Below are positions 474-22,588 of a stretch of DNA of 33,173 nt, in pieces (position 1 is the stretch's first letter; every line of letters begins with the position of its first letter). Source of the DNA: Desulfobacterales bacterium (GTDB lineage Bacteria; Desulfobacterota; Desulfobacteria; Desulfobacterales; ETH-SRB1); assembly GCA_030610995.1 (NCBI GenBank), contig JAUWQO010000019.1, positions 1-33,173 of the forward strand, read 5' to 3'. Position numbers and translations under genes: made by a program. The notes beneath the pieces were generated by a model that was given only the letters and a program-made list of their open reading frames with translations, was not told the origin of the DNA and searched no databases.

Positions 474-599
474 TGCGAACGCTCGCCATCACCAGTGGGC
501 AGGGTAAACGGGCTTTTGTAAAAGGCGATTAAACACAAAACTTGGTAAAAACTTCAAACCGCACGACCCTGCCCATCTGAGTGAATGGCGTTGTTCGGA
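474..599 (-). repeat. attC-like recombination site A
   Basis: Arms CGCCATCACCAGTGGGCAGGGT (484-505) and ACCCTGCCCATCTGAGTGAATGGCG (566-590) pair with only 3 single-base bulges; outer boxes TGCGAAC (474-480) and GTTCGGA (593-599) fit R'/R'' roles. Confidence 0.75.
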
Positions 600-631: not shown

Positions 632-865
632 TCAGGCCGCCTTGGCTTTCGCAAGATCAAGCACTTTGGCCTGAACACTATCGAGCACGGAATCTCGAAT
701 GAACGCGCTCGCGTTAAGGATCTCAATACCAATCAGCTCCCCTTTGGCATTGAGTTCCGCCGTGATATTTGGGCTAACCTCTACACTGCCCGCCTCTGGT
801 TCATCCGATATGGCAAGATGAAGAACGTCGTCCTTCTCGAAGTATGCCATGCGTGTTTTATTCAT
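632..865 (-). CDS. DUF2283-like small protein
   Basis: MAYFEKDDVLHLAISDEPEAGSVEVSPNITAELNAKGELIGIEILNAS matches the DUF2283 pattern; overlaps the upstream DUF4258-like gene. Confidence 0.7.
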   Translation of the reverse strand: MNKTRMAYFEKDDVLHLAISDEPEAGSVEVSPNITAELNAKGELIGIEILNASAFIRDSVLDSVQAKVLDLAKAKAA

Positions 866-1136
866 TCTTAAACCTCCCCGATTTGATTCGAGAGTTGATT
901 TGTTGCCGGCTTATCGCATGAATCGTTACAGGCGTCAGTGTGCGCCCCTTTAGCTCATACGGTATCATGACGAAAAGTTTCTCGTGTCGGCCAATCGCGA
1001 CCACACGCCCTGTCACCGTGTCTACGTACCGCTCAGAGGAGTATCGCAAGATTTGCTCGACCGTCGTAAGATCGTATCCCCGCAAACTTAGCCGGTACTT
1101 CATATACTCGGTCCAGACAATCGTTGCCTCCTCCAT
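858..1136 (-). CDS. DUF4258-like protein (putative toxin partner of DUF2283 protein)
   Basis: Small ORF MEEATIVWTEYMKYRLSLRGYDLTTVEQILRYSSERYVDTVTGRVVAIGRHEKLFVMIPYE; 8-bp overlap with DUF2283 gene. Confidence 0.55.
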   Translation of the reverse strand: MEEATIVWTEYMKYRLSLRGYDLTTVEQILRYSSERYVDTVTGRVVAIGRHEKLFVMIPYELKGRTLTPVTIHAISRQQINSRIKSGRFKNE

Positions 1137-1148
1137 CTTTCCTCCTCA

Positions 1149-1273
1149 TCCGAATGCAAAAGTCACCTGCCGGAAAAGCTATGATGAAGCTGGCAGATGC
1201 AAAGCTTTGCGAAAATAAAGTAAATACGAAAAATGCCGCAGCTTTTCCGGTCAGGTGAACTGTTTTGTTCGGG
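1149..1273 (-). repeat. attC-like recombination site B
   Basis: Arms GTCACCTGCCGGAAAAGCT (1162-1180) and AGCTTTTCCGGTCAGGTGAAC (1240-1260) pair with two single-base bulges; outer boxes TCCGAAT (1149-1155) and GTTCGGG (1267-1273). Confidence 0.75.
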
Positions 1274-1508
1274 GCGGTTGCTTGTGATGCGCAGCATATA
1301 GATCTAAAAGCCTGCGAATCATTTTTTGATATTGTGTATTATGCTTTTTTGCTTCATCTTTGAAAAAATTAACGCTGTCTTTGCTGAGAGTGATAGTGAT
1401 TTTTACATTCTCCTCTTTAAATAGCAAGTCTTCAGGAGGAGGCAGAAAATCATCTACTATGCGCAGTTTCCCCAATGGTTTATCAGTATATTTAATTTTG
1501 GCTTTCAT
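1251..1508 (-). CDS. brnA: BrnA-like antitoxin (RHH)
   Basis: MKAKIKYTDKPLGKLRIVDDFLPPPEDLLFKEENVKITITLSKDSVNFFKDEAKKHNTQYQKMIRRLLDLYA; downstream of BrnT-like ORF. Confidence 0.75.
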   Translation of the reverse strand: MKAKIKYTDKPLGKLRIVDDFLPPPEDLLFKEENVKITITLSKDSVNFFKDEAKKHNTQYQKMIRRLLDLYAAHHKQPPRTKQFT

Positions 1509-1770
1509 ATATTTTCCTTCCTTTTCGCCAATATCCCGCACCAATAATGCGTATAACACTGCCACGATATGTGAAACGAACAGTTATAATTCCATCACCG
1601 ACTTTACCAAAACAGTAAAATCGTTTTTCCTTTTGGCTGTGATTTAAGTCCTCTGCAATAATGCGGTTAGGATCGGTAAAAGCATATTGGGCAAGTTCAA
1701 ATGAAATCCTGTGTTTGTCCTGATTTTCCTTATCTTTTTTGGCATCCCATTCAAATTTTACCTTTTTCAT
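1492..1770 (-). CDS. brnT: BrnT-like toxin
   Basis: MKKVKFEWDAKKDKENQDKHRISFELAQYAFTDPNRI...RFYCFGKVGDGIITVRFTYRGSVIRIIGAGYWRKGRKIYE is characteristic of BrnT. Confidence 0.85.
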   Translation of the reverse strand: MKKVKFEWDAKKDKENQDKHRISFELAQYAFTDPNRIIAEDLNHSQKEKRFYCFGKVGDGIITVRFTYRGSVIRIIGAGYWRKGRKIYESQN

Positions 1771-1852
1771 ATTTTATCTAATATCAAAGGTGATTTATGA
1801 AAACAATATAAAAATACATATTTAATTATGGCTTTTAGGCGAGAAGGTAGGC

Positions 1853-1939
1853 CCCGAATGCGGAGCTGAGCGAAGTAGGAACGGGCTCAAGCGAAGCTTG
1901 AAGTCCGTGACGACTTTCGCTCCAGCGGACTTGTTCGGG
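1853..1939 (-). repeat. attC-like site C of an ORF-less cassette (copy 1)
   Basis: R'-like CCCGAAT (1853-1859) and R''-like GTTCGGG (1933-1939) flank imperfect inner arms; lies inside the 117-bp direct repeat. Confidence 0.55.
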
Positions 1940-1973
1940 TGTGCGAATCAGCGCACATCCGAATTAATCAGCG
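1857..1973. repeat. 117-bp direct repeat, copy 1
   Basis: aatgcggagctgagcgaagtaggaacgggctcaagcg...cgcacatccgaattaatcagcg identical to 2555-2671. Confidence 0.97.
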
Positions 1974-2006
1974 GTAGGGAGCGATAGCTCCAGCGTGTTG
2001 TTGGGG
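1958..2006 (-). repeat. degenerate short attC-like site C' directly after PIN gene stop
   Basis: TCCGAAT (1958-1964) and GTTGGGG (2000-2006) boxes around a short hairpin GGAGCgataGCTCC. Confidence 0.35.
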
Positions 2007-2540
2007 TCATGTCCACTTTTTTTGCAAATCTTTAGGAGACACCTCTTCTGGATCTATAACACCATATCCTTCTGCCTCAATAATCTTCTTAAAATTTTTG
2101 TCTGAAGTAACTATGTGAGGGAGTGATTCTCCAGCAAGCCCAAAACAGCCAAGATAGTTGTGGGCACACATAAGATGCCAGACATCACGGTCATTTTGCC
2201 CAATGGAAAGGCCATGCTTTTTAATCATTTGTTCATATTCCATAGGGTGTCCGACTTTAAAATCAGGAATTGGATATGTGTCACGGATACGAAATATATC
2301 ACTGAAATATCCATTGGCGCGCTCAATAATGTTTTTCACTTTTGAGGTAGTAAGTTGCTTATATGCTGCTTTCTTCCACAAAAGTTTCTCAAATTCGAGT
2401 CTTGCAAAGATCGAAACCGAAAGGTTGAGTCCTAATTTGGTACGATTATCGGCTAAATATCTAACGGTTTCACTCCCACGTTCGTCTATAAAAAATTTAA
2501 CGATTGCACATGTGTCAAGAATTAAGATTTTCATTATCAT
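2007..2540 (-). CDS. PIN-domain protein
   Basis: MIMKILILDTCAIVKFFIDERGSETVRYL...SVSIFARLEFEKLLWKKA...NDRDVWHLMCA...PHIVTSDKNFKKI: spaced acidic residues of a PIN nuclease. Confidence 0.65.
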   Translation of the reverse strand: MIMKILILDTCAIVKFFIDERGSETVRYLADNRTKLGLNLSVSIFARLEFEKLLWKKAAYKQLTTSKVKNIIERANGYFSDIFRIRDTYPIPDFKVGHPMEYEQMIKKHGLSIGQNDRDVWHLMCAHNYLGCFGLAGESLPHIVTSDKNFKKIIEAEGYGVIDPEEVSPKDLQKKWT

Positions 2541-2550
2541 CTTTATCTAC

Positions 2551-2637
2551 CCCCAATGCGGAGCTGAGCGAAGTAGGAACGGGCTCAAGCGAAGCTTGAA
2601 GTCCGTGACGACTTTCGCTCCAGCGGACTTGTTCGGG
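2551..2637 (-). repeat. attC-like site D of an ORF-less cassette (copy 2)
   Basis: CCCCAAT (2551-2557) and GTTCGGG (2631-2637) boxes; same internal sequence as site C. Confidence 0.55.
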
Positions 2638-2671
2638 TGTGCGAATCAGCGCACATCCGAATTAATCAGCG
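2555..2671. repeat. 117-bp direct repeat, copy 2
   Basis: Identical to 1857-1973. Confidence 0.97.
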
Positions 2672-2722
2672 CAAATCAGCGGGCGCGGCTTTTTGCGCTC
2701 CGCTGCATTTGCATTGTTATAT
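2656..2722 (-). repeat. attC-like recombination site E
   Basis: Arms GCAAATCAGCGGGCG (2671-2685) and CGCTCCGCTGCATTTGC (2696-2712) pair with bulges; outer TCCGAAT (2656-2662) and GTTATAT (2716-2722). Confidence 0.65.
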
Positions 2723-2763
2723 CATTCATTGACAGGGTTGCAGGCAAATAGCGAAAGAGGCCA

Positions 2764-3057
2764 TTATGATTCTATCAACTGGTAGGCCTCTAATTCTCGG
2801 TATACTTCACTCAACTCTTTATTTAGTTGAGTAACGTATTCCTTTGCCACATAGTAAATTAGGTCTCCATCTTCCTTTTCCTCCATACTGAATTCAAATA
2901 GCCCTTTTCTCAAATGTATAACTAATTCATTAAACACCTTTTTTATTTCATTTGGTTCATCTTTAGTTAAGGGCAAACACAAAATAGAATCCTTGATTTT
3001 AAAACTTAGAAAGTGTTCTGAGCCATCCAATGTTACCTTTGCATCATGGGTTTCCAT
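2764..3057 (-). CDS. small protein encoded downstream of and overlapping the TrlF-like gene
   Basis: METHDAKVTLDGSEHFLSFKIKDSILCLPLTKDEPNEIKKVFNELVIHLRKGLFEFSMEEKEDGDLIYYVAKEYVTQLNKELSEVYRELEAYQLIES; start overlaps the end of the 713-aa ORF by 14 bp. Confidence 0.65.
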   Translation of the reverse strand: METHDAKVTLDGSEHFLSFKIKDSILCLPLTKDEPNEIKKVFNELVIHLRKGLFEFSMEEKEDGDLIYYVAKEYVTQLNKELSEVYRELEAYQLIES

Positions 3058-5185
3058 ATATTTGCCCCCTTTCTCCGAATGCATTTTTCCCGCCTTCTAA
3101 GGTCCTCATACTTATTTCTTTCCAGTCGATCTTGTCTTCTTCATCCTTGATATTTACTAGATTATTCGAAAATGGATTGCCCACGAATGTTTCATACCCA
3201 TTTATCCCGTGCATTCTATAAACCGAATTGTACGGTAATGTCCGAACTGCAATATTCGCATCATGAGTAGCGATGAATATTTTCTTGCCAATCTTAGCTT
3301 TTTCTTTAATCAAGGGGACAATAACATTATTAATATATTCGTTTCCTAAGCTTTTTTCAGGTTCATCCAGTATATAAACATCTTTATCTTCTATTAATTC
3401 CCTATGTAACAACAGCATAGATGATTCACCTGTTGATGGTTCGTATAATTCACCGTTTATTGTAAAAGACTTGCTGATTAATAACAGTTCGAGAATCGTA
3501 GGAATATACTCTACGCCCTCTATAGAATTTAGTTTTGTAATTTCTTCAAAAAGTAGTGGCGAATATAAATTGTCATTTATTGATTTGATTGCTTTAGAAA
3601 ATAATTGTTGGGGAGTTTTCTTAACACTAGCTATAGGTTTAAATCTACTGTCACGAATATTGCCATCATGGATTTTAATTTCCGTTTTGCAGTAAAGATC
3701 ACCTTTTTCATCCAGGTTGCCTATATATTCAGGAGGTATGTCAATTTCTTTACGAATGTTTCTCAGAACTTCCTTTACTGCTATTTCAATTTTTATTCTA
3801 TTTGAAGCATATTTTCTGAATCCTGTCGTACTAGGTTTCCCAGGAGTCCCTGTTTTTTTGGATATCTCAAGCTTGACGTTTTCAATTAAATTATTGAAAA
3901 GATGGGCAACCTTGTGTTCGATAAAAGCTCCTATACGCTTTCCCTCTAGATCTTCTAATATTGATGTGAAACTTTCAGACAGTTCTTTGAGTTTACTACT
4001 CTCGACAAATTTAATTACTGATTTATCATTCTCTAAATAATCCTTAAACTCCTTGATTTTTTTATGTACAGCATTAACTGATACAAATTCACGCTCATGA
4101 ACTTGAATGTCTTCTGTAGAAAAATCTTTGATTTTGATTTTATTGGCGTTAGCATTCTTGATTTTTTCTGAATAGAACTGCCTATATTTAGATAGACTCG
4201 TCACATCTGTCTCTTGGGCCTTTTTAATGAAATCAATTTCCTTCTTGCAATATGAGATCCCATAGTTCAAAAGATCGATCGATATTTTTTTACAGTCTAA
4301 ATCATATATATCTGCGAGATTAGACGAACCTGATTCAAATTTATAAGAGTTAATTCCTTTGTTAGCAAAATGACGAGCAATAGCTTCGAGGATTTTTGAC
4401 TTTCCCGTCCCCTTTGAACCAAAAAAAACATTAATGTCATCATAGACTATTATTTCTAACACCTTTCTATCTTCAAAAGGTCTGATTGAAATTTTATCAG
4501 GAGCTTTTTTATCTAATAGAGAATTTATTGCTTTTCGATCTTTGTTTAGAAGCATGCAAAACTGTTCAAAACTTTCGACAGGTAACCTAAGGTCTGGAAG
4601 ATCTTTTGATATTGCTTGATATTTATCCCAATCTTGAATGTCAGAACCATATATTGATGAGTGCCCATGGCTTAAAAAAATCCCTGCTGAAATTGAATTT
4701 GTTGCTTCTTTTAACACCCTATCTTTTTGTGTTGTTTTTGAAATTAATTTTTCAATATCATTATCTATTAAATCAGGTTTTTTTTGCTTGTAATGTGCGA
4801 TGTATAAAGGGTTAAGGCTGTCAAAATTTGAAACAACATCATCAACTGAGATAGTAAAATTGTTTGGTGTAATCCCCTTAGATATTGAATACATGATTGT
4901 TTCCATTGCTCGTGCATGATTCGGAGAGACAATCACCAACAGATGGCCTCTACGCCCATCCTCTATAATATCTAGTTCAACACCAGGCCAGATTTGAAAA
5001 TCATTCCCCACAATTTCAATGAAGTCATTGTATTGTTTTATGTCAAAATGGTTATGATTAGTGATAGCAACAATTTTCACATCAGTTGAAGAAATTATCT
5101 CGTGGAATCTTCGTGCACCAATCTCTCTTGTTTGAGCATCACCTTGTTTGGTTTTTTTTGTATGGACATGAACATCGATTTTCAT
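3044..5185 (-). CDS. TrlF-like protein: N-terminal PHP domain plus SMC/ABC-type AAA ATPase
   Basis: N-term MKIDVHVHTKKT...VAITNHNHFD (PHP); Walker A FFGSKGTGKSKILEAIARHF; Walker B KDVYILDEPEKSLGNEYI; IFIATHDANIAVRTLP. Confidence 0.8.
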   Translation of the reverse strand: MKIDVHVHTKKTKQGDAQTREIGARRFHEIISSTDVKIVAITNHNHFDIKQYNDFIEIVGNDFQIWPGVELDIIEDGRRGHLLVIVSPNHARAMETIMYSISKGITPNNFTISVDDVVSNFDSLNPLYIAHYKQKKPDLIDNDIEKLISKTTQKDRVLKEATNSISAGIFLSHGHSSIYGSDIQDWDKYQAISKDLPDLRLPVESFEQFCMLLNKDRKAINSLLDKKAPDKISIRPFEDRKVLEIIVYDDINVFFGSKGTGKSKILEAIARHFANKGINSYKFESGSSNLADIYDLDCKKISIDLLNYGISYCKKEIDFIKKAQETDVTSLSKYRQFYSEKIKNANANKIKIKDFSTEDIQVHEREFVSVNAVHKKIKEFKDYLENDKSVIKFVESSKLKELSESFTSILEDLEGKRIGAFIEHKVAHLFNNLIENVKLEISKKTGTPGKPSTTGFRKYASNRIKIEIAVKEVLRNIRKEIDIPPEYIGNLDEKGDLYCKTEIKIHDGNIRDSRFKPIASVKKTPQQLFSKAIKSINDNLYSPLLFEEITKLNSIEGVEYIPTILELLLISKSFTINGELYEPSTGESSMLLLHRELIEDKDVYILDEPEKSLGNEYINNVIVPLIKEKAKIGKKIFIATHDANIAVRTLPYNSVYRMHGINGYETFVGNPFSNNLVNIKDEEDKIDWKEISMRTLEGGKNAFGERGQIYGNP

Positions 5186-5306
5186 AAAATTCCCTACAAT
5201 TTGCGCTATCGCTTTGATGTATCTTCTTGATTGGTATTTAGAAACTGTTAATTTTTATACTTGCCGACAATTTTGATAAATTTACCCTCTGATCAAATTC
5301 ATTTAG

Positions 5307-5378
5307 ATATAACGGAAAGCTTACCGGATTTTGTGGAGCAAGGCGGAACACAATTCCGTGTAAAGCGCCAGGTTATGT
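5307..5378 (-). repeat. attC-like recombination site F
   Basis: Arms GCTTACCGGATTTTGTG (5319-5335) and CACAATTCCGTGTAAAGC (5349-5366) pair with bulges; outer ATATAAC (5307-5313) and GTTATGT (5372-5378). Confidence 0.7.
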
Positions 5379-5407
5379 TTTAATCGATTTTTATTTATTG
5401 ATTTTAT

Positions 5408-6208
5408 TTATGCCTCGACCTTCATACCAAGTTTAAGACCAAGAAATGCTAATTCTTCTTTGATACGCCTGATAGACATTTTGCTAAGTTTGTATTTTTT
5501 ATTTAGTTCTGATTCAGTATGTTGAACCAAATCACCAAGCTTTAAAATATTAGCTTTTTTAAGTTCAACAATTGCTCTTACAGGTAACTCAAGTTCTGGG
5601 ATTATTGAATATTTTGGTTTATTAATTGTATTATCAATTTCAGTATTTATTGAACGTGTGATTGTTAGAACCTCTTCTAGTATTTCCCTATCACTCCTTA
5701 TCTCAAATTTGTTTTTTGGATCCTCATTTTTCATTACTTCAAATACTTGTGATTCAAGATCTGCCCACCATTTTTCATATACTTTTTCTAAAATGTTTGA
5801 ATCCAACGCTGTGTCACCTAAAGCCTTGTTTATTGATTTAATGACTTTACTCATCTCATTTTTCCCGAAAGTGGCACATTGGAACTGGGATAATGGAGCC
5901 TTAATATCAGTTGGACGTAGCCCAAATAGTATGGGAATAACACGTGATTTAGTGAAAGTCTTAGCAAGTGCACCAGCCTCGAATAAAATCCATGGGGCTT
6001 CATAATTTTCGTTAGTAAGACAAATAATCCCAACATTTGAATTCTCTAATTCTTTCGATATTTCAGAATACCAGATTGCCCCTTTGTCAATATCATCGGG
6101 AGAAAAATAAGGTTCAACGGCTTGAATAACTGATGGAATCCAATTGCGTATTATTTCGGCTAGTTTTCTACTTTTTTCACCTGACCAGCTAATAAATAAT
6201 TTCATCAA
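5408..6208 (-). CDS. TIR-domain protein with C-terminal RNA polymerase alpha-CTD-like domain
   Basis: N-term MMKLFISWSGEKSRKLAEIIRNWIPSVIQAVEPYFSPDDIDKG...NYEAPWILFEAGALAKTF (TIR_2 type); C-term LELPVRAIVELKKANILKLGDLVQHTESELNKKYKLSKMSIRRIKEELAFLGLKLGMKVE aligns with E. coli RpoA CTD. Confidence 0.85.
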   Translation of the reverse strand: MMKLFISWSGEKSRKLAEIIRNWIPSVIQAVEPYFSPDDIDKGAIWYSEISKELENSNVGIICLTNENYEAPWILFEAGALAKTFTKSRVIPILFGLRPTDIKAPLSQFQCATFGKNEMSKVIKSINKALGDTALDSNILEKVYEKWWADLESQVFEVMKNEDPKNKFEIRSDREILEEVLTITRSINTEIDNTINKPKYSIIPELELPVRAIVELKKANILKLGDLVQHTESELNKKYKLSKMSIRRIKEELAFLGLKLGMKVEA

Positions 6209-13257: not shown

Positions 13258-13489
13258 GAAAACCCCTCTTCCACTAAATGCACTGATATCAAACAACTAT
13301 CTAAAAACGCAAGATATTTTTTTGCTTTTTATGTTGGGAAATGTTAGGCTTTTTTAGAAAAAAATAGACACGATAGGTACAGAATAAACACAATTTGGGG
13401 GATAGCTTGATCAGCGAAAAGCCGGGATCTCCGCAACCGGCTTCCCCCATTTCTTCAATGCGGAGTTTAACGTCTTGCGGAGGGACAGC

Positions 13490-14531: not shown

Positions 14532-14717
14532 ATGAATGAAAAACTAAAAACCTCACAGGTCGCTCGGATTTGTGGTGTGCACAATCAAACAGTTTTGAAT
14601 TACTGTAAACGTGGGCTAATTACTCCTGCTCGGGATGTGAATAATCATAGGCGATTTTCACAGGTGGATGTTGAAAAGTTGAAGAGAATTCTTTCCGCCC
14701 GGTGGCCGGCTGGATGA
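14532..14717 (+). CDS. MerR/excisionase-like HTH protein
   Basis: MNEKLKTSQVARICGVHNQTVLNYCKRGLITPARDVNNHRRFSQVDVEKLKRIL; ggagggagg upstream. Confidence 0.8.
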   Translation: MNEKLKTSQVARICGVHNQTVLNYCKRGLITPARDVNNHRRFSQVDVEKLKRILSARWPAG

Positions 14718-15268
14718 TAGCGGAACTTAAACAAAATATCGATCTCGTGTCGGTCGTAGAATCCGCAGGCGTGGAGCTAAAACGCAGCGGAACCCGGAAA
14801 GTTGGTCTTTGTCCTTTTCATACTGAGAGGACACCGAGCTTTTTTGTCTTCCCGAACAACCGCTTTTACTGCTTTAGCTGCAATTCGAAAGGGGATGTCA
14901 TTGATTTTGTGCAAAGGCTGCATGGCCTGTCATTTAAGGATGCTTTGAAGTATTTGGGAATTGAGAGGGGCCGCGTAACTCCAAAAATCCGGGAAGACAT
15001 TCAGCAGCGTAAACGTCGGGCGGAGTTGATTAAGCAATTCAAGGATTGGTTAAACCGTTATACAGCCCATGTTGGCGGCTTAATTATTGAAACCGAAGAG
15101 TTGATGAAAGCAGGTATCCCGCCGGAAGACTTGGATTTATACGCTTCGGTGTTTCACATGCTGCCCGTCTGGCACTATCATCTAAGCATTTTGGTAGATG
15201 GGGAAGAAAAAGAACAGTTTTTGCTTTATGAAGAGGCCAAAAAATGGAAGACGACAGATTTAATTTAG
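14702..15268 (+). CDS. CHC2-type primase zinc-finger protein
   Basis: VGLCPFHTERTPSFFVFPNNRFYCFSCNSKGDVIDFVQRLHGLSFKDALKYL; only the zinc-binding region is evident. Confidence 0.88.
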   Translation: MAGWMIAELKQNIDLVSVVESAGVELKRSGTRKVGLCPFHTERTPSFFVFPNNRFYCFSCNSKGDVIDFVQRLHGLSFKDALKYLGIERGRVTPKIREDIQQRKRRAELIKQFKDWLNRYTAHVGGLIIETEELMKAGIPPEDLDLYASVFHMLPVWHYHLSILVDGEEKEQFLLYEEAKKWKTTDLI

Positions 15269-17019
15269 AACAAGCGCTAGAAAAAGAAGCTGATAAAAAG
15301 AAGAAAAAAAAAGAACCTGAAGAGAAGAAACCGACAATCGCGGATTCTCTTGTATTTCTTTCTAAAAAAAACGTTCAGTATTTTTTTCATGATCAACTGG
15401 ACACGCCTTATGCCCGCTTTCTTGTAAAAGATCATTCTGAACACTGGCCGATAAGAAGCAAGGCATTTCGTGTCTGGCTACAAGGGCTGTATTTTAAAAC
15501 TGAAAAAAAAGGTGCCAATTCGGATGCAATGAGTCAAGCGATGGATACACTGGAAGCCATAGCAAAATTTGACGGCAAGGGTGAGGTCGAGCTGCACGTT
15601 AGAGTTTGCGAACACGATGGTGCATACTGGTATGACTTGAGTAATGAGAAATGGCAAGCCGTTTCGATCACAGAAACCGGCTGGCAGATAATAGATGATC
15701 CGCCTGTTCTGTTTAGAAGGCTTTCACATCAAAAGTCGCAGGTTTTGCCTGATAGCAATGGGGATATTGATGCCTTAAACCCATTTTTGGCGGGCATTTC
15801 TGAGGAAGAAAAGAAAAAACTTGTTATAGCCTGGCTTATTTCATGCCTCATACCTGGGTTTTCTCATACAATTCTTGTCCCTTATGGCGACCAAGGTTCT
15901 GGCAAAACAACTCTTTCAAAAAATCTCAAAACCATTATAGATCCCTCTCTTATTGATACTTTAGGTATAATTGGAGAGCAACGGGAGCTTGTGCAGACAC
16001 TAAGTCACCACTGGTTATTGCCTTATGACAATTTGTCTTCATTAAGCCGTGAGGTGCAAAATATTTTTTGCCGGACAATTACAGGAGCGAGTTACTGCAA
16101 ACGCAAACTATATTCTGATGATGAAGATATTATCACGAAAAATCGTAACTGCCTTATTATTTCAGGAATCAACTATCCTGCCACAGCGCCTGACCTTTTA
16201 GACAGATGCATTCTAATCAAGTTGAAAAGATTCAATAATAGCGGCTTAAACAAAAAAGATGCTGTCCTGGATAAAGAGTTTCAAGCGGCGTTGCCTGCTA
16301 TCCTGGCCGGGATGTTTGATGTTCTTTCAAAAGCCATGCGCATTAAAAGTAAAGTCAATTTAAGTGTATTGCCACGGATGGCCGACTTTGCCGAGTGGGG
16401 ATATGCTATTGCAGAGGCAATGGGGGCTAGCGGTCAAAGCTTCATGGCTACCTATCAAGAAAATATCGAGTTGCGCAATCAAGAGATCATTGGTGCCAAT
16501 CCGGTGGCAAGTGCCATAGTGGATTTTCTGGAAGGCCGGGCGGAGTGGACGGGAAAGGCAAGCGAACTTTTAGATAATCTCGAAGCAGTGACCCCTGAAA
16601 AAGAACGAAAAGCAAAAGCCTGGCCGAAGTCTTCCAACGTACTCACGAGACGTTTGAACGAGTTAAAAACGAACTTAGATGAAGCGGGGATAAATATTGA
16701 AATAAACCGCACCAGCAAAGGCCGTTTTATCACCTTAATTTCTTGCCAAGAAGTAGGCAAAAATACCGTCACTAACCGTCATACCGTCACAAGTCAACAA
16801 AATCAAGAAGTTACGCATGACGATAGCATGACGGTATATGACGGTACTGAAAATATACCGTCATGCTCTAACCATGTGGAATCAATACAAAATGACGATA
16901 GTGACGATAATGACGATGTTTTACCTACTGTTTTGGGAAGCGCTGAAGCGGATGAACCTTTATGGAAAAAGCTAAGATTCGATTCCGAGCAGGACTATTT
17001 AAATATGATCGGCGGTTAA
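15244..17019 (+). CDS. phage/plasmid primase-associated P-loop helicase-like ATPase
   Basis: Walker A VPYGDQGSGKTTLSKNL, LLPYDNLSSLSREVQNIFCRTITGASYCKRKLYSDDED, RNCLIISGINYPATAPDLLDRCILIKL. Confidence 0.85.
   Translation: MEDDRFNLEQALEKEADKKKKKKEPEEKKPTIADSLVFLSKKNVQYFFHDQLDTPYARFLVKDHSEHWPIRSKAFRVWLQGLYFKTEKKGANSDAMSQAMDTLEAIAKFDGKGEVELHVRVCEHDGAYWYDLSNEKWQAVSITETGWQIIDDPPVLFRRLSHQKSQVLPDSNGDIDALNPFLAGISEEEKKKLVIAWLISCLIPGFSHTILVPYGDQGSGKTTLSKNLKTIIDPSLIDTLGIIGEQRELVQTLSHHWLLPYDNLSSLSREVQNIFCRTITGASYCKRKLYSDDEDIITKNRNCLIISGINYPATAPDLLDRCILIKLKRFNNSGLNKKDAVLDKEFQAALPAILAGMFDVLSKAMRIKSKVNLSVLPRMADFAEWGYAIAEAMGASGQSFMATYQENIELRNQEIIGANPVASAIVDFLEGRAEWTGKASELLDNLEAVTPEKERKAKAWPKSSNVLTRRLNELKTNLDEAGINIEINRTSKGRFITLISCQEVGKNTVTNRHTVTSQQNQEVTHDDSMTVYDGTENIPSCSNHVESIQNDDSDDNDDVLPTVLGSAEADEPLWKKLRFDSEQDYLNMIGG
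16765..16917. repeat. iteron-like cluster of TGACGRT/AYCGTCA heptamers
   Basis: ACCGTCA at 16765, 16775, 16783, 16857; TGACGRT at 16818, 16829, 16839, 16893, 16902, 16911. Confidence 0.7.
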
Positions 17020-17141
17020 TATTTTGGTGTGCTGGTTGGGGCCTCTTCCAGCGGGTAAGGGTGGGTAAAATCGTTAATCGCATTTTTTGAAACGACGGAA
17101 AGTGTGGGGATAAACTCGGCACGTACAAAGGAAAAATCAAA

Positions 17142-17297
17142 ATGAGAGAAGAAATATCATTAATTGAGGAACTTGACCGGGGCCTTGAGCGGCAAGACCG
17201 GCTTGATGTGCAGCTTACCCGTCTTGAAGTGGCGCTGGTTGAACAAAAAGAAGCGCAGGGCACAGATAATTTAACGGATAATTTAGACACAGTTTAA
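17142..17297 (+). CDS. small hypothetical protein
   Basis: MREEISLIEELDRGLERQDRLDVQLTRLEVALVEQKEAQGTDNLTDNLDTV; own reading, not in ORF track. Confidence 0.4.
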   Translation: MREEISLIEELDRGLERQDRLDVQLTRLEVALVEQKEAQGTDNLTDNLDTV

Positions 17298-17304
17298 ACA
17301 CAGC

Positions 17305-17538
17305 ATGGCTAAACGTACTGGAATAAAACAGAATAAAAGGGCGCAAGGGATTAGTAATCCTCGGCTCTTGCCTCTAAAGGACGCCGCTGCATGGTTAGGT
17401 TTAACTCTTTGGGCCATGCGGGAACGAATATGGGCCGGTCAAATTCCTGTGGTTCAGTTTCCGGGCGGGCGTAAGATGTATGTTGATACTCAGGATATTG
17501 AGGCATTTATTCAGATGAACAAAAGGACAATTATCTAA
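17305..17538 (+). CDS. excisionase-type HTH DNA-binding protein
   Basis: PLKDAAAWLGLTLWAMRERIWAGQIPVVQFPGGRKMYVDTQDIEAFI. Confidence 0.75.
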   Translation: MAKRTGIKQNKRAQGISNPRLLPLKDAAAWLGLTLWAMRERIWAGQIPVVQFPGGRKMYVDTQDIEAFIQMNKRTII

Positions 17539-17539
17539 A

Positions 17540-17875
17540 ATGGAAGAAAACAATTCAAATAACGAGAGTCAAAACAACAAAAAACTATTCAGGAAAGGTG
17601 GTCTTCCGGGCCCGGGTAGAGGCAAAAAGAAGCCACCGAAGCCTTTAACCCTCTTGGAAATCGAAGGCGAGCTTCAGAAGGACTTACGTAATTCAGACCC
17701 AAAGATCAGGCATAATGCAACGAAGATATATCTTATGCTGAAAAAGCAGATGGGTGAATCAACCAACAGTGCAACAATCGACCCTAACGTCAGGAAGGCG
17801 TTGGCTGGCTATACTGATGATCTATTCGGTGACGAGGATGTGCAAGAGACTGATGAGGATGATATAACTAATTGA
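17540..17875 (+). CDS. hypothetical protein
   Basis: N-term LFRKGGLPGPGRGKKKPPKPLTLLEIEGELQKDL; starts 2 bp after the HTH ORF. Confidence 0.55.
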   Translation: MEENNSNNESQNNKKLFRKGGLPGPGRGKKKPPKPLTLLEIEGELQKDLRNSDPKIRHNATKIYLMLKKQMGESTNSATIDPNVRKALAGYTDDLFGDEDVQETDEDDITN

Positions 17876-18009
17876 ATTTACTGTAATAAGAGGCTGGGGA
17901 TACCACCGGTTCCGGTTTGTGTAAGCATATCAGTATCTTATGGTTTCCACCTGCACGCAAACGTTAAAAAATTACACACAAACACAAACACACACAGAAG
18001 GAGAAGACA

Positions 18010-18351
18010 ATGAATGATTATGATGATGAAAGTTTTTTAGATGAAGGTGAAAAAGCCCGGCAGTATCAAGATTCTTACATCGGCAACATGAAAAAATTGA
18101 CAGATGGTTTGGATAACGATCACAGGGAAACGCTGTTCACAGAACTGGAAACCATAAAATACAACCCTACGTCGAGCCCGGCACAGGATGCTGAACTAAA
18201 TTTGTTGCGAGCTCAAAAAATTGTTTCCAGCAAAAAGCGAAATCTGGGCGGTGCCGTTAGTTCTTTCTTGAAATATAAACAACGGGCTGATGGCAAGAGT
18301 GCGGCCTCGATTGATCGTTGGGCTGACGGAGTTATGCGAGAGGAAGACTAA
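18010..18351 (+). CDS. hypothetical protein
   Basis: ATG preceded by aaggagaagac; MNDYDDESFLDEGEKARQYQDSYIGNMKKL. Confidence 0.6.
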   Translation: MNDYDDESFLDEGEKARQYQDSYIGNMKKLTDGLDNDHRETLFTELETIKYNPTSSPAQDAELNLLRAQKIVSSKKRNLGGAVSSFLKYKQRADGKSAASIDRWADGVMREED

Positions 18352-18377
18352 CTAAAAAAATTAAAGGAGGATTAGCT

Positions 18378-19265
18378 ATGACTGAAAGTGGTTTATATGA
18401 CCAGGCCCTTTTGTACGCTGAAGATCAGACGAAACGTTTGAGATTCTTATATGAACAAAGAACTTATGCCCGGATAGGTGGTGAAAAGGCAATAAAAGAT
18501 TTAATCAAAATTTCTGGGCTTTCTGAAAATCTGTTTTTGTTTGAATGTTATCAAAAGCAGTTCAACAAGATCAGCAATAAAGATTTTTTGTTTCGGGAGC
18601 AAAAGTTTCGCGCCCTTACGGCGCTGTGGGGACTTTATACCGGCCGGTTTTATCACATGGAGCTTCCTGTCAGCCAAGCGATTCGGGAGCATGTGGCGGC
18701 GCCTGGGCATGAGAATTTACCCCCAAAGACTTACAACTTTGGCGATCTTAAGGCGTTTGAGGCTTACAGCCTGCATTTTTCTCATTGGGACGAAAAGTTT
18801 GACGAATATTTTACTGACAAAAGAAAACTAAAGAGCGGCAAATCATCAGACCTGCCTGATGAGGATTTTCGATTGCGCTATGACCTGGCCAAAGAGATTC
18901 TTGAAAAACTAAAGGTAAGGTTGAAAGAGTTGTTGAAGCCCGGGGACCCTGTTGAAGTTGCAAAGCATAATGCGGTATTGAGGGAACTTATCTTTGAAAT
19001 CCGGCGGTGGCCGGGTGCTTTACAGGGTTTTGTTTGGAGTCGTTTTGACGAATTAAAAAAGGAGTTGAAGGCAAAGGACAAGTTTGCCGAGCTTATTTTA
19101 AATGCGCTTGGCGATGCCCTTTACGAGGGCTTAGACTTTGAAGCTTTCCGGCGCGAAATCATTTTGTATTATTGGGGGGAACTTGATGCTCTTTTGAAGG
19201 ATGCGAAACAAAAAGAGATTGTGGAGTTGATTCAGGCTGAGATAACAGAAATTATACATAATTAA
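18378..19265 (+). CDS. hypothetical protein, 295 aa, charged
   Basis: RBS aaaggagg; long ORF in same orientation as the element's operon. Confidence 0.65.
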   Translation: MTESGLYDQALLYAEDQTKRLRFLYEQRTYARIGGEKAIKDLIKISGLSENLFLFECYQKQFNKISNKDFLFREQKFRALTALWGLYTGRFYHMELPVSQAIREHVAAPGHENLPPKTYNFGDLKAFEAYSLHFSHWDEKFDEYFTDKRKLKSGKSSDLPDEDFRLRYDLAKEILEKLKVRLKELLKPGDPVEVAKHNAVLRELIFEIRRWPGALQGFVWSRFDELKKELKAKDKFAELILNALGDALYEGLDFEAFRREIILYYWGELDALLKDAKQKEIVELIQAEITEIIHN

Positions 19266-19280
19266 AAAAGGAGAATTAAA

Positions 19281-19808
19281 ATGAAGGTAGTTACCCAAAA
19301 AAACGATACAGAAAATGGCGAAAAAGTAACCATTGAGCCGCTTGTTTTAAACAGCGTATTGGTTAAAACAACAACCTTTAATGTAAGGGTCCCGAAAGAA
19401 GTTCCTTATGACGTGGATGTCCCGAATTATATCAACAAAAACTTTGAACGTCCGGTTCCAGTTGATACACCATACGAGCGACCAGTTATTACAGAAAAGT
19501 TGTATGAGGTGCCTGTTGTAGTGGAGGCAGAACAGACATTACAGGTAGCCACGAGGGCGGCAGCGGTGCTTGATGGAGCCGAAGCCATGCTAACCAGAAC
19601 CGAGACTATGCTAAACGGAGTTAATGAAAGCGCTATGGCTCTTGACAGCTTAATCGACAAAATGAATTTAACTATGAAGGAAGTTAAGGAAAAACTGGAC
19701 GGGGTTAAGAATTATGAGGTTGTAAAAGAAGACCTTGTCGTTAAAGTGCCCAAGTTAGTTTATGAAACAAAACACGTCATTGGTAAAGTTGTCGTAAAGG
19801 GAGCCTGA
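19281..19808 (+). CDS. hypothetical protein with Val-Pro repeat region and helical segment
   Basis: RBS aaaggag; VRVPKEVPYDVDVPNYINKNFERPVPVDTPYERPVITEKLYEVPVVVEAEQ. Confidence 0.65.
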   Translation: MKVVTQKNDTENGEKVTIEPLVLNSVLVKTTTFNVRVPKEVPYDVDVPNYINKNFERPVPVDTPYERPVITEKLYEVPVVVEAEQTLQVATRAAAVLDGAEAMLTRTETMLNGVNESAMALDSLIDKMNLTMKEVKEKLDGVKNYEVVKEDLVVKVPKLVYETKHVIGKVVVKGA

Positions 19809-19951
19809 TTGTGCATTGTGGTTATATCGTTTTGGTAAAAAGCCGGATCGGCAAGGCCGTAAATATAGCCGTGAATCAAATAAAATGGCAGTAGGATAGG
19901 CTTTTATTTATTTTCTGGGGTAAGGGCATAACTCAGGTTTAATGTAGGAAG

Positions 19952-20827
19952 ATGCAAAGAAAATCCTTAAAACTTTTAGAACAAGTGCAAGAAATTATTA
20001 AGAGCTATGACTTCGCCCTTACCTTGCGACAGATTTACTATCAGCTTGTGGCAAAGCAGATCATCCCGAACCAGCAAAACGAGTACATGAAGCTGTCAAG
20101 GTTATGTGTTCTTGGCAGGGATGAAGGGATATTGCGGGAAGATGCTTTTGCAGACAGGTTGAGACAGATCGATAAACCAGATTCATACCTTGACCTTGAT
20201 GATTTTATGAACACCGTAAGGCAGTCGTATCGTAAGGATAAGTGGCAAGACCAGGACGCTTATATTGAAGTGTGGACGGAAAAAGATGCTTTGCGAAGTG
20301 TGTTGACTGATGTCACTTATTCTTATGATGTAAACTTAATGGTGGTAAGGGGCCAGGTGAGCCGGACTGCCATATACGAAAGCTATAAGCGGTTTGCCGA
20401 AAAGATAGACGAAGGCAAGGATTGTCACCTTTATTATGCAGGCGACTTTGACCCTTCCGGGCTTTCTATTTATCACAGCCTTGTGGATAGAATCAGGAGG
20501 TTTGGCGATGCCGGGGAATACATAACCTTTGGAAGGGTGGCTTTAACACCTATTCAAATAGAAGAATATAACTTGCCTTCCGACCCTGCAAAGCAGAAAG
20601 ACCCTAACTGCAAACGCTTTATTGATGAGTATGGTGATGGCGTGGTTGAGCTTGACGCCTTGCCGCCGGATGTTTTAAGGGACCTGGTTAAGGAGTGCAT
20701 TGAAAAACATCTTGACTTTGATCTTTTTGAACAAGTGCGAAAAAAAGAACTTAAAGAGCAGGCGGAACTACAAACACTTATTTCTCAGGCTTCTTCCAGT
20801 CAATGCCTTGCTCTTCAAGGTATTTGA
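19952..20827 (+). CDS. Topo VI-A/Spo11-like (Mini-A type) TOPRIM protein
   Basis: N-term LTLRQIYYQLV (candidate catalytic Tyr), VWTEKDALRSVL (TOPRIM Glu region), LYYAGDFDPSGLSIYHSLVDRI (TOPRIM DxD). Confidence 0.65.
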   Translation: MQRKSLKLLEQVQEIIKSYDFALTLRQIYYQLVAKQIIPNQQNEYMKLSRLCVLGRDEGILREDAFADRLRQIDKPDSYLDLDDFMNTVRQSYRKDKWQDQDAYIEVWTEKDALRSVLTDVTYSYDVNLMVVRGQVSRTAIYESYKRFAEKIDEGKDCHLYYAGDFDPSGLSIYHSLVDRIRRFGDAGEYITFGRVALTPIQIEEYNLPSDPAKQKDPNCKRFIDEYGDGVVELDALPPDVLRDLVKECIEKHLDFDLFEQVRKKELKEQAELQTLISQASSSQCLALQGI

Positions 20828-20969
20828 TAACAATCATTTCGACCTGAGAAGAAAGACTTCTAAAGCCCTCTTTCGCAAACTTTTCTAAAGCTTTTTTTAC
20901 TTGGGGTGGAGTTTTAAACGTAATGGATGAAGTTTTCATTTTTTTATGATGCTCATTGATTTTTTTCAT
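20778..20969 (-). CDS. ribbon-helix-helix-like small regulator
   Basis: MKKINEHHKKMKTSSITFKTPPQVKKALEKFAKEGFRSLSSQVEMIVIKYLEEQGIDWKKPEK; converges on and overlaps the TOPRIM gene 3' end. Confidence 0.6.
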   Translation of the reverse strand: MKKINEHHKKMKTSSITFKTPPQVKKALEKFAKEGFRSLSSQVEMIVIKYLEEQGIDWKKPEK

Positions 20970-21092
20970 TTTAATACCTTTCCTTAATATTGCTGTCAAA
21001 ATATCTTTTATATTTTTTTTGTTGACAAAAGATACTTTAGGCTATAATTTATAATTATGCAAGAAAAAGTTTAAACTCAAAAACACAGTATC

Positions 21093-21263
21093 ATGAAAAC
21101 TAATTTAATAAACATACGCTTGAAGGAACTTGCAGCGGTGACGTTGCAGGCGGCTTATACTGTGGGCCGGAGTAAAACCTTCAGGCGTTTTGTTTTTGAG
21201 GCCCTGAGAGGCTCTGAGACGGCATTTCAGGGGTTAGGCATATCAGACTATGCCCAGGAATAG
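21093..21263 (+). CDS. small hypothetical protein, 56 aa
   Basis: MKTNLINIRLKELAAVTLQAAYTVGRSKTFRRFVFEALRGSETAFQGLGISDYAQE; own reading. Confidence 0.4.
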   Translation: MKTNLINIRLKELAAVTLQAAYTVGRSKTFRRFVFEALRGSETAFQGLGISDYAQE

Positions 21264-21350
21264 CTTTCTCGAAGTGAACACCGGCAAAACCTCCTGGCCG
21301 GTGTTCCTGGGCTACTAACAAACAGGAGAACCAGAGTGAAGGGGGGCTTT

Positions 21351-22445
21351 ATGGGAAGCATTTACAAAAGAGGGAAGGTTTACTGGGTTCAATATTACCG
21401 TATGGGGAAACCTTACCGTGAATCCACAAAGAGCAAGAAAGAGTGTGATGCAAAGCGCTTATTAAAAAAGCGTGAAGGTGAAATTTCAGAGGGCAAACTT
21501 CCGGGGATTTACTTTGACCGGGTTAAATTTGACGAACTGTCAGAGGACTTTCTCAGGGATTACCGAATTAACAACAGAAAGTCACTTAATAGGGCTGAAC
21601 AAAGCACAGAACACCTTAAGCGATATTTTGAAGGGTACAGGGTGACTGATATCAACTCACCTAAAATAGAGGGTTATATTGAGAGCCGTCTTGATGAAGG
21701 CGCTGCAAACGCTACCATTAACAGGGAACTATCTGCTTTAAAGCGTATGCTCAACATAGGCGCCAGACAGACACCGCCAAAGGTTGACCGTGTGCCTTAT
21801 ATTCCCATGCTGAAGGAAAGTAATATTCGTAAGGGATTTTTTGAACACGGGGAGTTTGTGGTTTTAAGGGATGAACTGCCGGAATATCTCAAAGGCTTTG
21901 TGACGTTCGCATACAAGACCGGGTGGAGGATGTCAGAGATAACAGACTTGACCTGGCCAAAGGTTGACCGTGATAATGGTATTGTCAGGCTTGAAGTCGG
22001 AGAAACTAAAAACGATGAAGCCCGGACGGTCTATCTCGACGAGGAATTACAAGAGGTATTTAACGGACAATGGGAAGCGAGGGGGAAAAGCCGAAAGCTC
22101 ACACCTTATGTATTCCCCAACATAGCCGGTACAGGCCGCATAAGCGATTTTAGGGGTTCATGGAAAACCGCCTGCAAAGATGCAAAGATAGGTCACAGGC
22201 TGTTTCATGATTTTAGAAGAACAGCTGTAAGGAATATGGTTAGGGCCCTTATCCCTGAAGGTGTGGTAATGAAGATTTCAGGCCACAAGACACGGTCTGT
22301 ATTTGAGCGTTATAATATCGTTAATGATGCAGATTTGAAACTGGCAGCACAAAAACAAGAGCTATATTTGCAGACACAAAAAGACACAGTTTCAAGCACA
22401 GTCCACAATTTAGGCGCCAAAAAAGGATTAACAAATAATGGCTAA
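21351..22445 (+). CDS. int: tyrosine recombinase/phage integrase
   Basis: MGSIYKRGKVYWVQYYRMGKPYRESTKSKKE; catalytic-type motifs TGWRMSEI, HDFRRTAVRNM, ISGHKTRSVFERYN. Confidence 0.95.
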   Translation: MGSIYKRGKVYWVQYYRMGKPYRESTKSKKECDAKRLLKKREGEISEGKLPGIYFDRVKFDELSEDFLRDYRINNRKSLNRAEQSTEHLKRYFEGYRVTDINSPKIEGYIESRLDEGAANATINRELSALKRMLNIGARQTPPKVDRVPYIPMLKESNIRKGFFEHGEFVVLRDELPEYLKGFVTFAYKTGWRMSEITDLTWPKVDRDNGIVRLEVGETKNDEARTVYLDEELQEVFNGQWEARGKSRKLTPYVFPNIAGTGRISDFRGSWKTACKDAKIGHRLFHDFRRTAVRNMVRALIPEGVVMKISGHKTRSVFERYNIVNDADLKLAAQKQELYLQTQKDTVSSTVHNLGAKKGLTNNG

Positions 22446-22458
22446 CTCCTTTATTTTA

Positions 22459-22518
22459 TTGGTGCCGGAGGTCGGAATCGAACCGACACGAACTTAAAGT
22501 TCGGAGGATTTTGAGTCC
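22459..22518. repeat. att direct repeat (right), inside tRNA-Leu
   Basis: Identical to 13198-13257. Confidence 0.95.
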
Positions 22519-22547
22519 TCTGCGTCTACCAGTTTCACCACTCCGGC
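22460..22547 (-). tRNA. tRNA-Leu (anticodon CAA)
   Basis: GCCGGAGTGGTGAAACTGGTAGACGCAGAGGACTCAAAATCCTCCGAACTTTAAGTTCGTGTCGGTTCGATTCCGACCTCCGGCACCA: acceptor, D, anticodon, variable and T arms, encoded CCA. Confidence 0.95.
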
Positions 22548-22588
22548 ACAAAATATATGTAGAAGCAATCTCAAAACATGTTGATAAT

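Follow-up and report, generated by a model that had tools for sequence, protein, structure and literature searches.

The TIR-alphaCTD gene and its product

The window, by which we mean the whole stretch of 33,173 nucleotides analysed, carries on its minus strand a gene (5408-6205) for a TIR domain fused to the C-terminal domain of the RNA polymerase alpha subunit (alpha-CTD). The open reading frame reported in the earlier note (5408-6208) was borne out as real, with a shorter ATG start (6205) favoured: reading from the ATG at 6203-6205 to the stop codon at 5408-5410 gives a protein of 265 amino acids.

The TIR domain and its C-terminal helices, as delimited with Pfam, PADLOC and AlphaFold2, cover residues 1-165 (5711-6205, minus strand). 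TIR_2 (PF13676) matched residues 4-116 with 34.4 bits, above the Pfam cut-off of 28, and residues 1-200 matched the PADLOC TIR-TM profile with 251 bits. The candidate catalytic glutamate that had been read from the sequence, Glu76 (codon 5978-5980, minus strand) in PWILFEAGAL, belongs to a W-x-x-x-E type motif and was invariant in alignment A6, a catalytic-type glutamate being present in all 185 complete members of the family. The TIR part is followed by a linker helix (residues 172-194; 5624-5692, minus strand) with a motif of the type R-S-D-R-x-x-L-E-E-x-L-x-x-x-R that is common to most TIR-family members.

The alpha-CTD occupies residues 196-264 (5414-5620, minus strand), a placement based on PF03118, a phmmer search of the PDB and Foldseek. 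RNA_pol_A_CTD (PF03118) matched residues 196-252 with 38.7 bits (E 8.5e-10, Pfam cut-off 23.8). Every PDB match with E <0.001 was an RpoA alpha-CTD, from many bacteria (best E 4.3e-9), and the alignments shown spanned about residues 200-264 without gaps, in agreement with the ungapped RpoA alignment proposed previously. In its own genome, PF03118 matched only RpoA (contig C146) and the TIR-alphaCTD protein. The resident rpoA is intact, and its alpha-CTD is 41% identical to the TIR-fused one.

The previous residue-by-residue reading was also right. Among the DNA-contact positions R265, N268, G296, K298, S299 and E302 (E. coli alpha numbering), the protein keeps two of six, R265 and S299, the other four being changed to V (N268), S (G296), M (K298) and R (E302). 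The R265 equivalent is Arg210 (codon 5576-5578, minus strand), which is kept in the four fusions described below, in RpoA and in 81 of 81 phage-borne alpha-CTDs. The equivalent of E261, a sigma contact, is retained too. The domain is homologous to the RpoA CTD, yet with two of six contacts kept DNA binding should not be assumed. We consider the fusion of TIR and alpha-CTD domains confirmed, and recurrent, in a known kind of predicted immune effector.

Fold prediction, suggested earlier as a check, depended on the alignment supplied. With RpoA rows included, the AlphaFold2 model reached a pLDDT of 89.2 and Foldseek matched it to the alpha-CTD of 3n4m chain B (TMt 0.89, 1.3 Å rmsd); with rows from the TIR family only, which have unrelated C-termini, prediction of the alpha-CTD region was poor (block pLDDT 57-78). 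We thus do not count the fold as proof independent of RpoA, since no confident alpha-CTD was obtained without RpoA rows, and the domain call is made on sequence. The TIR part of the AlphaFold2 model had pLDDT >80 for most residues, and the best PDB fold matches of this half were SPARTA TIR-APAZ chains.

A putative integron cassette

The genes examined at 858-6208 all lie on the minus strand, and their sequence is AT-rich, with 33-37% G+C where measured versus 43-45% in the flanking housekeeping genes. Among them are a BrnT/BrnA-type toxin-antitoxin pair and one gene each of the PIN-domain-like and PHP-plus-ATPase types. The PHP-plus-ATPase gene (3044-5185), directly downstream of the TIR cassette, fuses a PHP-type N-terminus to an SMC/RecF-like ATPase and is related to PADLOC PDC-M49A and NCBIfam TrlF, which makes it a candidate defence gene. 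The PIN-domain-like gene (2007-2540, minus strand) is flanked by two 122-bp direct repeats (1852-1973 and 2550-2671) that are 99% identical, and a truncated attC-like sequence adjoins the second of them.

Directly 3' of the TIR-alphaCTD gene, beginning about 30 nt past its stop codon, folding and the architecture scan placed an attC-shaped recombination site (5309-5376, minus strand). Its fold comprises a 5-bp R box, 5-nt unpaired spacers, an L box with extrahelical bases and a terminal stem, and its folding energy was modestly better than that of shuffled sequences (z about -1.4). A strict single-bulge attC scan of the window missed this site. The two-bulge architecture scan recovered it together with another attC-shaped site (476-597, minus strand) in this cassette stretch; these two sites in the 33 kb window, against a mean of 0.075 per shuffled window, are to be taken as indicative because the scan had been tuned with the site at 5309-5376 already known.

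The genome encodes two full integron integrases (TIGR02249, 490 and 481 bits), both on contigs other than that of the window (C40 and C185). Read by eye, contig C185 shows attC-like elements beside its integrase, which the architecture scan did not pick up. Given the attC-shaped sites and the integrases on other contigs, we best explain the stretch as cassettes whose own contig carries no integrase. The integron-type cassette proposed in the earlier note was thus upheld, the TIR-alphaCTD gene being best read as a single-gene putative cassette with a structure-based attC call.

Further along the window, a candidate integrative element (about 14700-22550) contains primase- and helicase-like genes, identified by reading the sequence only. 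An integrase-like ORF (21336-22445) in this element adjoins a tRNA-Leu gene (22460-22547), and there is an int-alpA RNA match at 13395-13464.

A TIR family with varied C-termini

We collected relatives of the protein from plasmids, phages, genomes and viral contigs and obtained 185 complete members; an alignment query was needed, as single-sequence pattern scans of the viral and genome collections returned no relatives. The family occurs in prophages, phages, plasmids and chromosomes. Several members are prophage cargo, for instance those that adjoin the antitermination gene Q in mEp390 and in a prophage-like region of E. coli. The TIR domain and the linker are conserved, and the C-termini past the linker motif fall into 78 clusters among the 185 members (largest, n=62), a pattern that suggests an exchangeable input module. 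With its mobile and phage-borne carriage and its varied ends, the family would seem to be a mobile defence effector whose end can be exchanged.

A Pfam scan of 141 members was followed by searches of selected members individually. Most members have a C-terminus without recognised domain. Two carry small HTH-like ends that were weakly detected with hand-made queries (L134 and L173), and the scan of 141 members also listed a candidate HTH-type match. Besides the alpha-CTD, the C-terminal domains above Pfam cut-offs in the members examined individually were sigma70 region 4 and Tudor. The C-terminus of member L239 is an RpoD-type sigma70 region 4 (PF04545, 36.2 bits, cut-off 24.1) and matched RpoD chains in the PDB (E 6.5e-8); this sequence ends at a masked stretch of N, so that the C-terminus read may be partial. 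According to our alignment reading, it lacks the equivalents of R584, E585 and R588, the -35 contact residues. The fusion lies at L239 1501-2500 (equivalent to L424 1738-2500), with a BrnT-like gene upstream.

The Tudor domain is of the PcrA/UvrD type and was found in L087 (4001-4828) and L256 (1501-2286), with 34.5 and 32.5 bits for a cut-off of 23.9. The Tudor of PcrA/UvrD is an RNA polymerase-interaction domain (PMC5397179, PMC7585439). The same TIR was thus found with three mutually unrelated modules (alpha-CTD, sigma region 4 and Tudor), all of them with a tie to RNA polymerase; such a module is present in 7 of about 185 members.

Recurrence and origin of the alpha-CTD fusion

A search for further proteins combining TIR with PF03118, advised in the earlier note, proved productive. 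Running an alpha-CTD model built from RpoA sequences over the TIR-family members, we recovered the domain in four of them: the window's protein and three more fusions in other genomes, namely L049 in a gammaproteobacterial MAG, L069 in Rhodanobacter, and L228 in another genome, sampled from the same class as that of L049. The DNA-contact residues are kept to very different extents (6/6 in L049, 5/6 in L228, 4/6 in L069 and 2/6 in the window's protein), and the R265 equivalent is kept in all four. The alpha-CTD of L049 is 59% identical to that of a proteobacterial RpoA. Among phage-borne members (83 TIR-family ORFs in a second locus set), no alpha-CTD was found except the known L228/L423 fusion.

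In the TIR tree, three fusions fell in one supported group of 15 members and the Rhodanobacter one elsewhere, which requires two changes; a single origin was not rejected (p-AU 0.126). In the alpha-CTD tree (65 columns), two of the domains grouped with gamma/betaproteobacterial RpoA (97/95), and a single clade of fusions was not rejected (p-AU 0.489). A repeated origin was thus not established, a single origin being allowed by both trees.

Phage attack on RNA polymerase and phage-borne alpha-CTDs

The alpha-CTD and sigma region 4 are both known phage targets. The T4 proteins Alt and ModA ADP-ribosylate alpha R265 and T4 AsiA binds sigma70 region 4 (PMC2988021), and phiKMV-like phages cause a cleavage that frees the alpha-CTD (PMC7552054). 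Viral genomes also contain alpha-CTDs of their own: at least 80 viral contigs (L263-L342) encode proteins that contain or end in a canonical alpha-CTD and have no alpha NTD, mostly small, standalone and often of 115-190 amino acids (for instance L307 2830-3183, L265 2938-3360 and L272 2662-3228). R265 and G296 are conserved in 81 of 81 of these phage-borne domains, and a type seen repeatedly has a helical 'MTKEELLDHLALEVL' part at its N-terminus. The viral standalone proteins are possible mimics of the host alpha-CTD. A Planctomycetota ORF of 456 amino acids (L223 622-1989) carries a tandem pair of alpha-CTDs. The attacks by T4 and phiKMV-like phages and the viral alpha-CTD proteins together mark the alpha-CTD as a contested surface.

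A proposed bait or sensor for RNA polymerase takeover by phages

We tentatively favour, at a little short of an even chance, a one-gene TIR effector whose alpha-CTD would serve as bait for, or sensor of, phages that take over RNA polymerase. We infer from the sequences an NADase activity, a defence role, a trigger, and a bait rather than a tether. The N-terminal TIR would be an NAD-consuming killer joined through the conserved helix to its C-terminal end, and the alpha-CTD would be the input end through which this effector is coupled to the transcription machinery of the host. The likeliest input would come from phages that interfere with RNA polymerase: one of their proteins, in binding, modifying or competing for the alpha-CTD, would meet the bait, the TIR domains would then assemble and deplete NAD, and the infected cell would stop before phage release. 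The data suggest that such proteins may watch for viruses seizing the host transcription machine.

The earlier note had left open whether the alpha-CTD is a decoy or sensor, or a tether to promoters or transcription factors. That proposal keeps its conditional standing but gains support from the three further genomes in which the fusion occurs and from the sigma70 region 4 and Tudor ends of relatives. Also in favour of a bait are the two domains above their Pfam cut-offs, the glutamate in all 185 members, the carriage of the family by phages, prophages and plasmids, its match to a PADLOC defence profile, the hypervariable C-termini on a conserved TIR and linker, and the phage attacks on the alpha-CTD and sigma region 4. 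A bait fits better than DNA binding, as R265 is kept in all four fusions while four of the six contacts are lost in the window's protein; the missing R584, E585 and R588 equivalents in the sigma region 4 of L239 likewise favour a bait over promoter binding. The conservation of R265 is not specific to a bait, as this residue is invariant in ordinary alpha-CTDs, and the same applies to the suggestion that ADP-ribosylation of the Alt/ModA type could be the sensed signal, for which the kept arginine is the evidence. Several observations count against a bait. The alpha-CTD of L049, with all its DNA-contact residues, is also compatible with promoter binding, and Tudor, a domain that binds RNA polymerase but is no part of that enzyme, fits a tether. 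As a rule for the family, the link to RNA polymerase is opposed by its presence in just 7 of about 185 members and by the few HTH-like ends.

Tethering is the alternative to which we give most weight, and we consider it rather unlikely. Here the TIR would be parked by its alpha-CTD, and in relatives by sigma region 4 or Tudor, on RNA polymerase, on transcription activators or on UP-element DNA, and would thereby sense transcription stalling or act locally. The binding of UvrD/PcrA Tudor to RNA polymerase (PMC5397179, PMC7585439) and the complete DNA-contact set of L049, with its 59% identity to a proteobacterial RpoA CTD, speak for a tether. The retained E261 equivalent, a sigma contact, does so as well. 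The promoter version of the proposal is weakened for the window's protein by the change of N268, G296, K298 and E302, and the lack of -35 contact residues in L239 points the same way. It is improbable that the alpha-CTD is a generic nucleic-acid sensor, a small helix-hairpin-helix (HhH) binder of phage DNA or replication structures: its fold is of the HhH type and a few relatives have HTH-like ends, but the match is specific to RpoA and does not extend to other HhH families, the DNA contacts are mostly lost, and the sigma region 4 and Tudor of relatives indicate RNA polymerase and not DNA in general.

The fusion might also be neutral or decaying, with an alpha-CTD acquired by chance that aids only folding or oligomerisation. 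Its rarity (4 in about 185) and the long branch of the window's alpha-CTD agree with this, but the four fusions occur in separate lineages, all with R265 kept and with an intact reading frame, and we find the explanation decidedly improbable; old retention is possible, as a single origin was not rejected in the TIR tree. We give hardly any credence to a chimera in which the assembly joined a TIR gene to rpoA. The window does come from a 200-contig assembly, but the same architecture is present in three other assemblies, the gene has an attC-shaped site beyond its stop codon, and, with 41% identity between the two alpha-CTDs and the resident rpoA intact on another contig, the domain is not a misassembled piece of that gene.

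Extending the bait reading to the relatives, it is possible, and we would hold it quite loosely, that they form a family of integrated decoys, in which one TIR chassis would have been repeatedly loaded with pieces of the transcription machinery (alpha-CTD, sigma70 region 4) or modules that bind RNA polymerase (PcrA/UvrD Tudor), and in which capture or modification of RNA polymerase by phage proteins would trigger suicide, much as in plant TIR receptors with integrated decoys.

Comparison with known systems

The TIR domain and linker align with PADLOC TIR-TM (PDLC03016; 251 bits over residues 1-200), which corresponds to the TIR component of 2TM-1TM-TIR, a system of P2-like prophages, and the homologue in Escherichia phage P2_AC1 is 39% identical to the window's protein. 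The C-terminus differs, being an alpha-CTD where that family usually has a helical end. We found no transmembrane partner genes, and no ORF on the same strand within 300 bases upstream of the TIR-alphaCTD gene. An assignment to TIR-TM/2TM-1TM-TIR as a system was thus dropped, since few family members have transmembrane genes directly upstream and the window's gene has none. Open PMC full-text searches, judged on titles and abstracts and covering few subscription journals, made no TIR-alphaCTD or TIR-sigma4 fusion evident, and literature searches on TIR-TM, 2TM-1TM-TIR and bacterial integrated decoys returned nothing useful.

The C-terminal domain resembles the RpoA alpha-CTD (PF03118) in its gapless alignment, its R265 and S299 equivalents and, when RpoA rows are in the alignment, its predicted fold; unlike RpoA, the protein has no alpha NTD, is fused to a TIR, and is changed at N268, C269, G296, K298 and E302. 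The window's protein shares the TIR fold and catalytic-type glutamate with Thoeris ThsB, SPARTA TIR-APAZ and the TIR of Cap12/Pycsar. In contrast to these systems, we saw no adjacent cyclic-nucleotide, Argonaute or STAND partner, and the sensor, if any, would lie in the same chain.

To our knowledge, the trigger is unknown for most standalone bacterial TIR effectors. A constant TIR with exchangeable ends, some of them recognisable as transcription modules, would provide named candidates, phage proteins that bind or modify the alpha-CTD or sigma region 4, and would allow an easy domain-swap test. Some plant TIR-NLR receptors contain integrated decoys, such as RRS1-WRKY, in which the receptor has incorporated part of a host protein targeted by pathogens. 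The window's protein is bacterial and lacks NB-ARC and LRR domains, unlike the plant receptors; the likeness, a TIR joined to part of a host protein under attack, would be an analogy of working only. If the bait reading is true, the integrated-decoy principle would extend to bacteria, with the host RNA polymerase as the monitored target.
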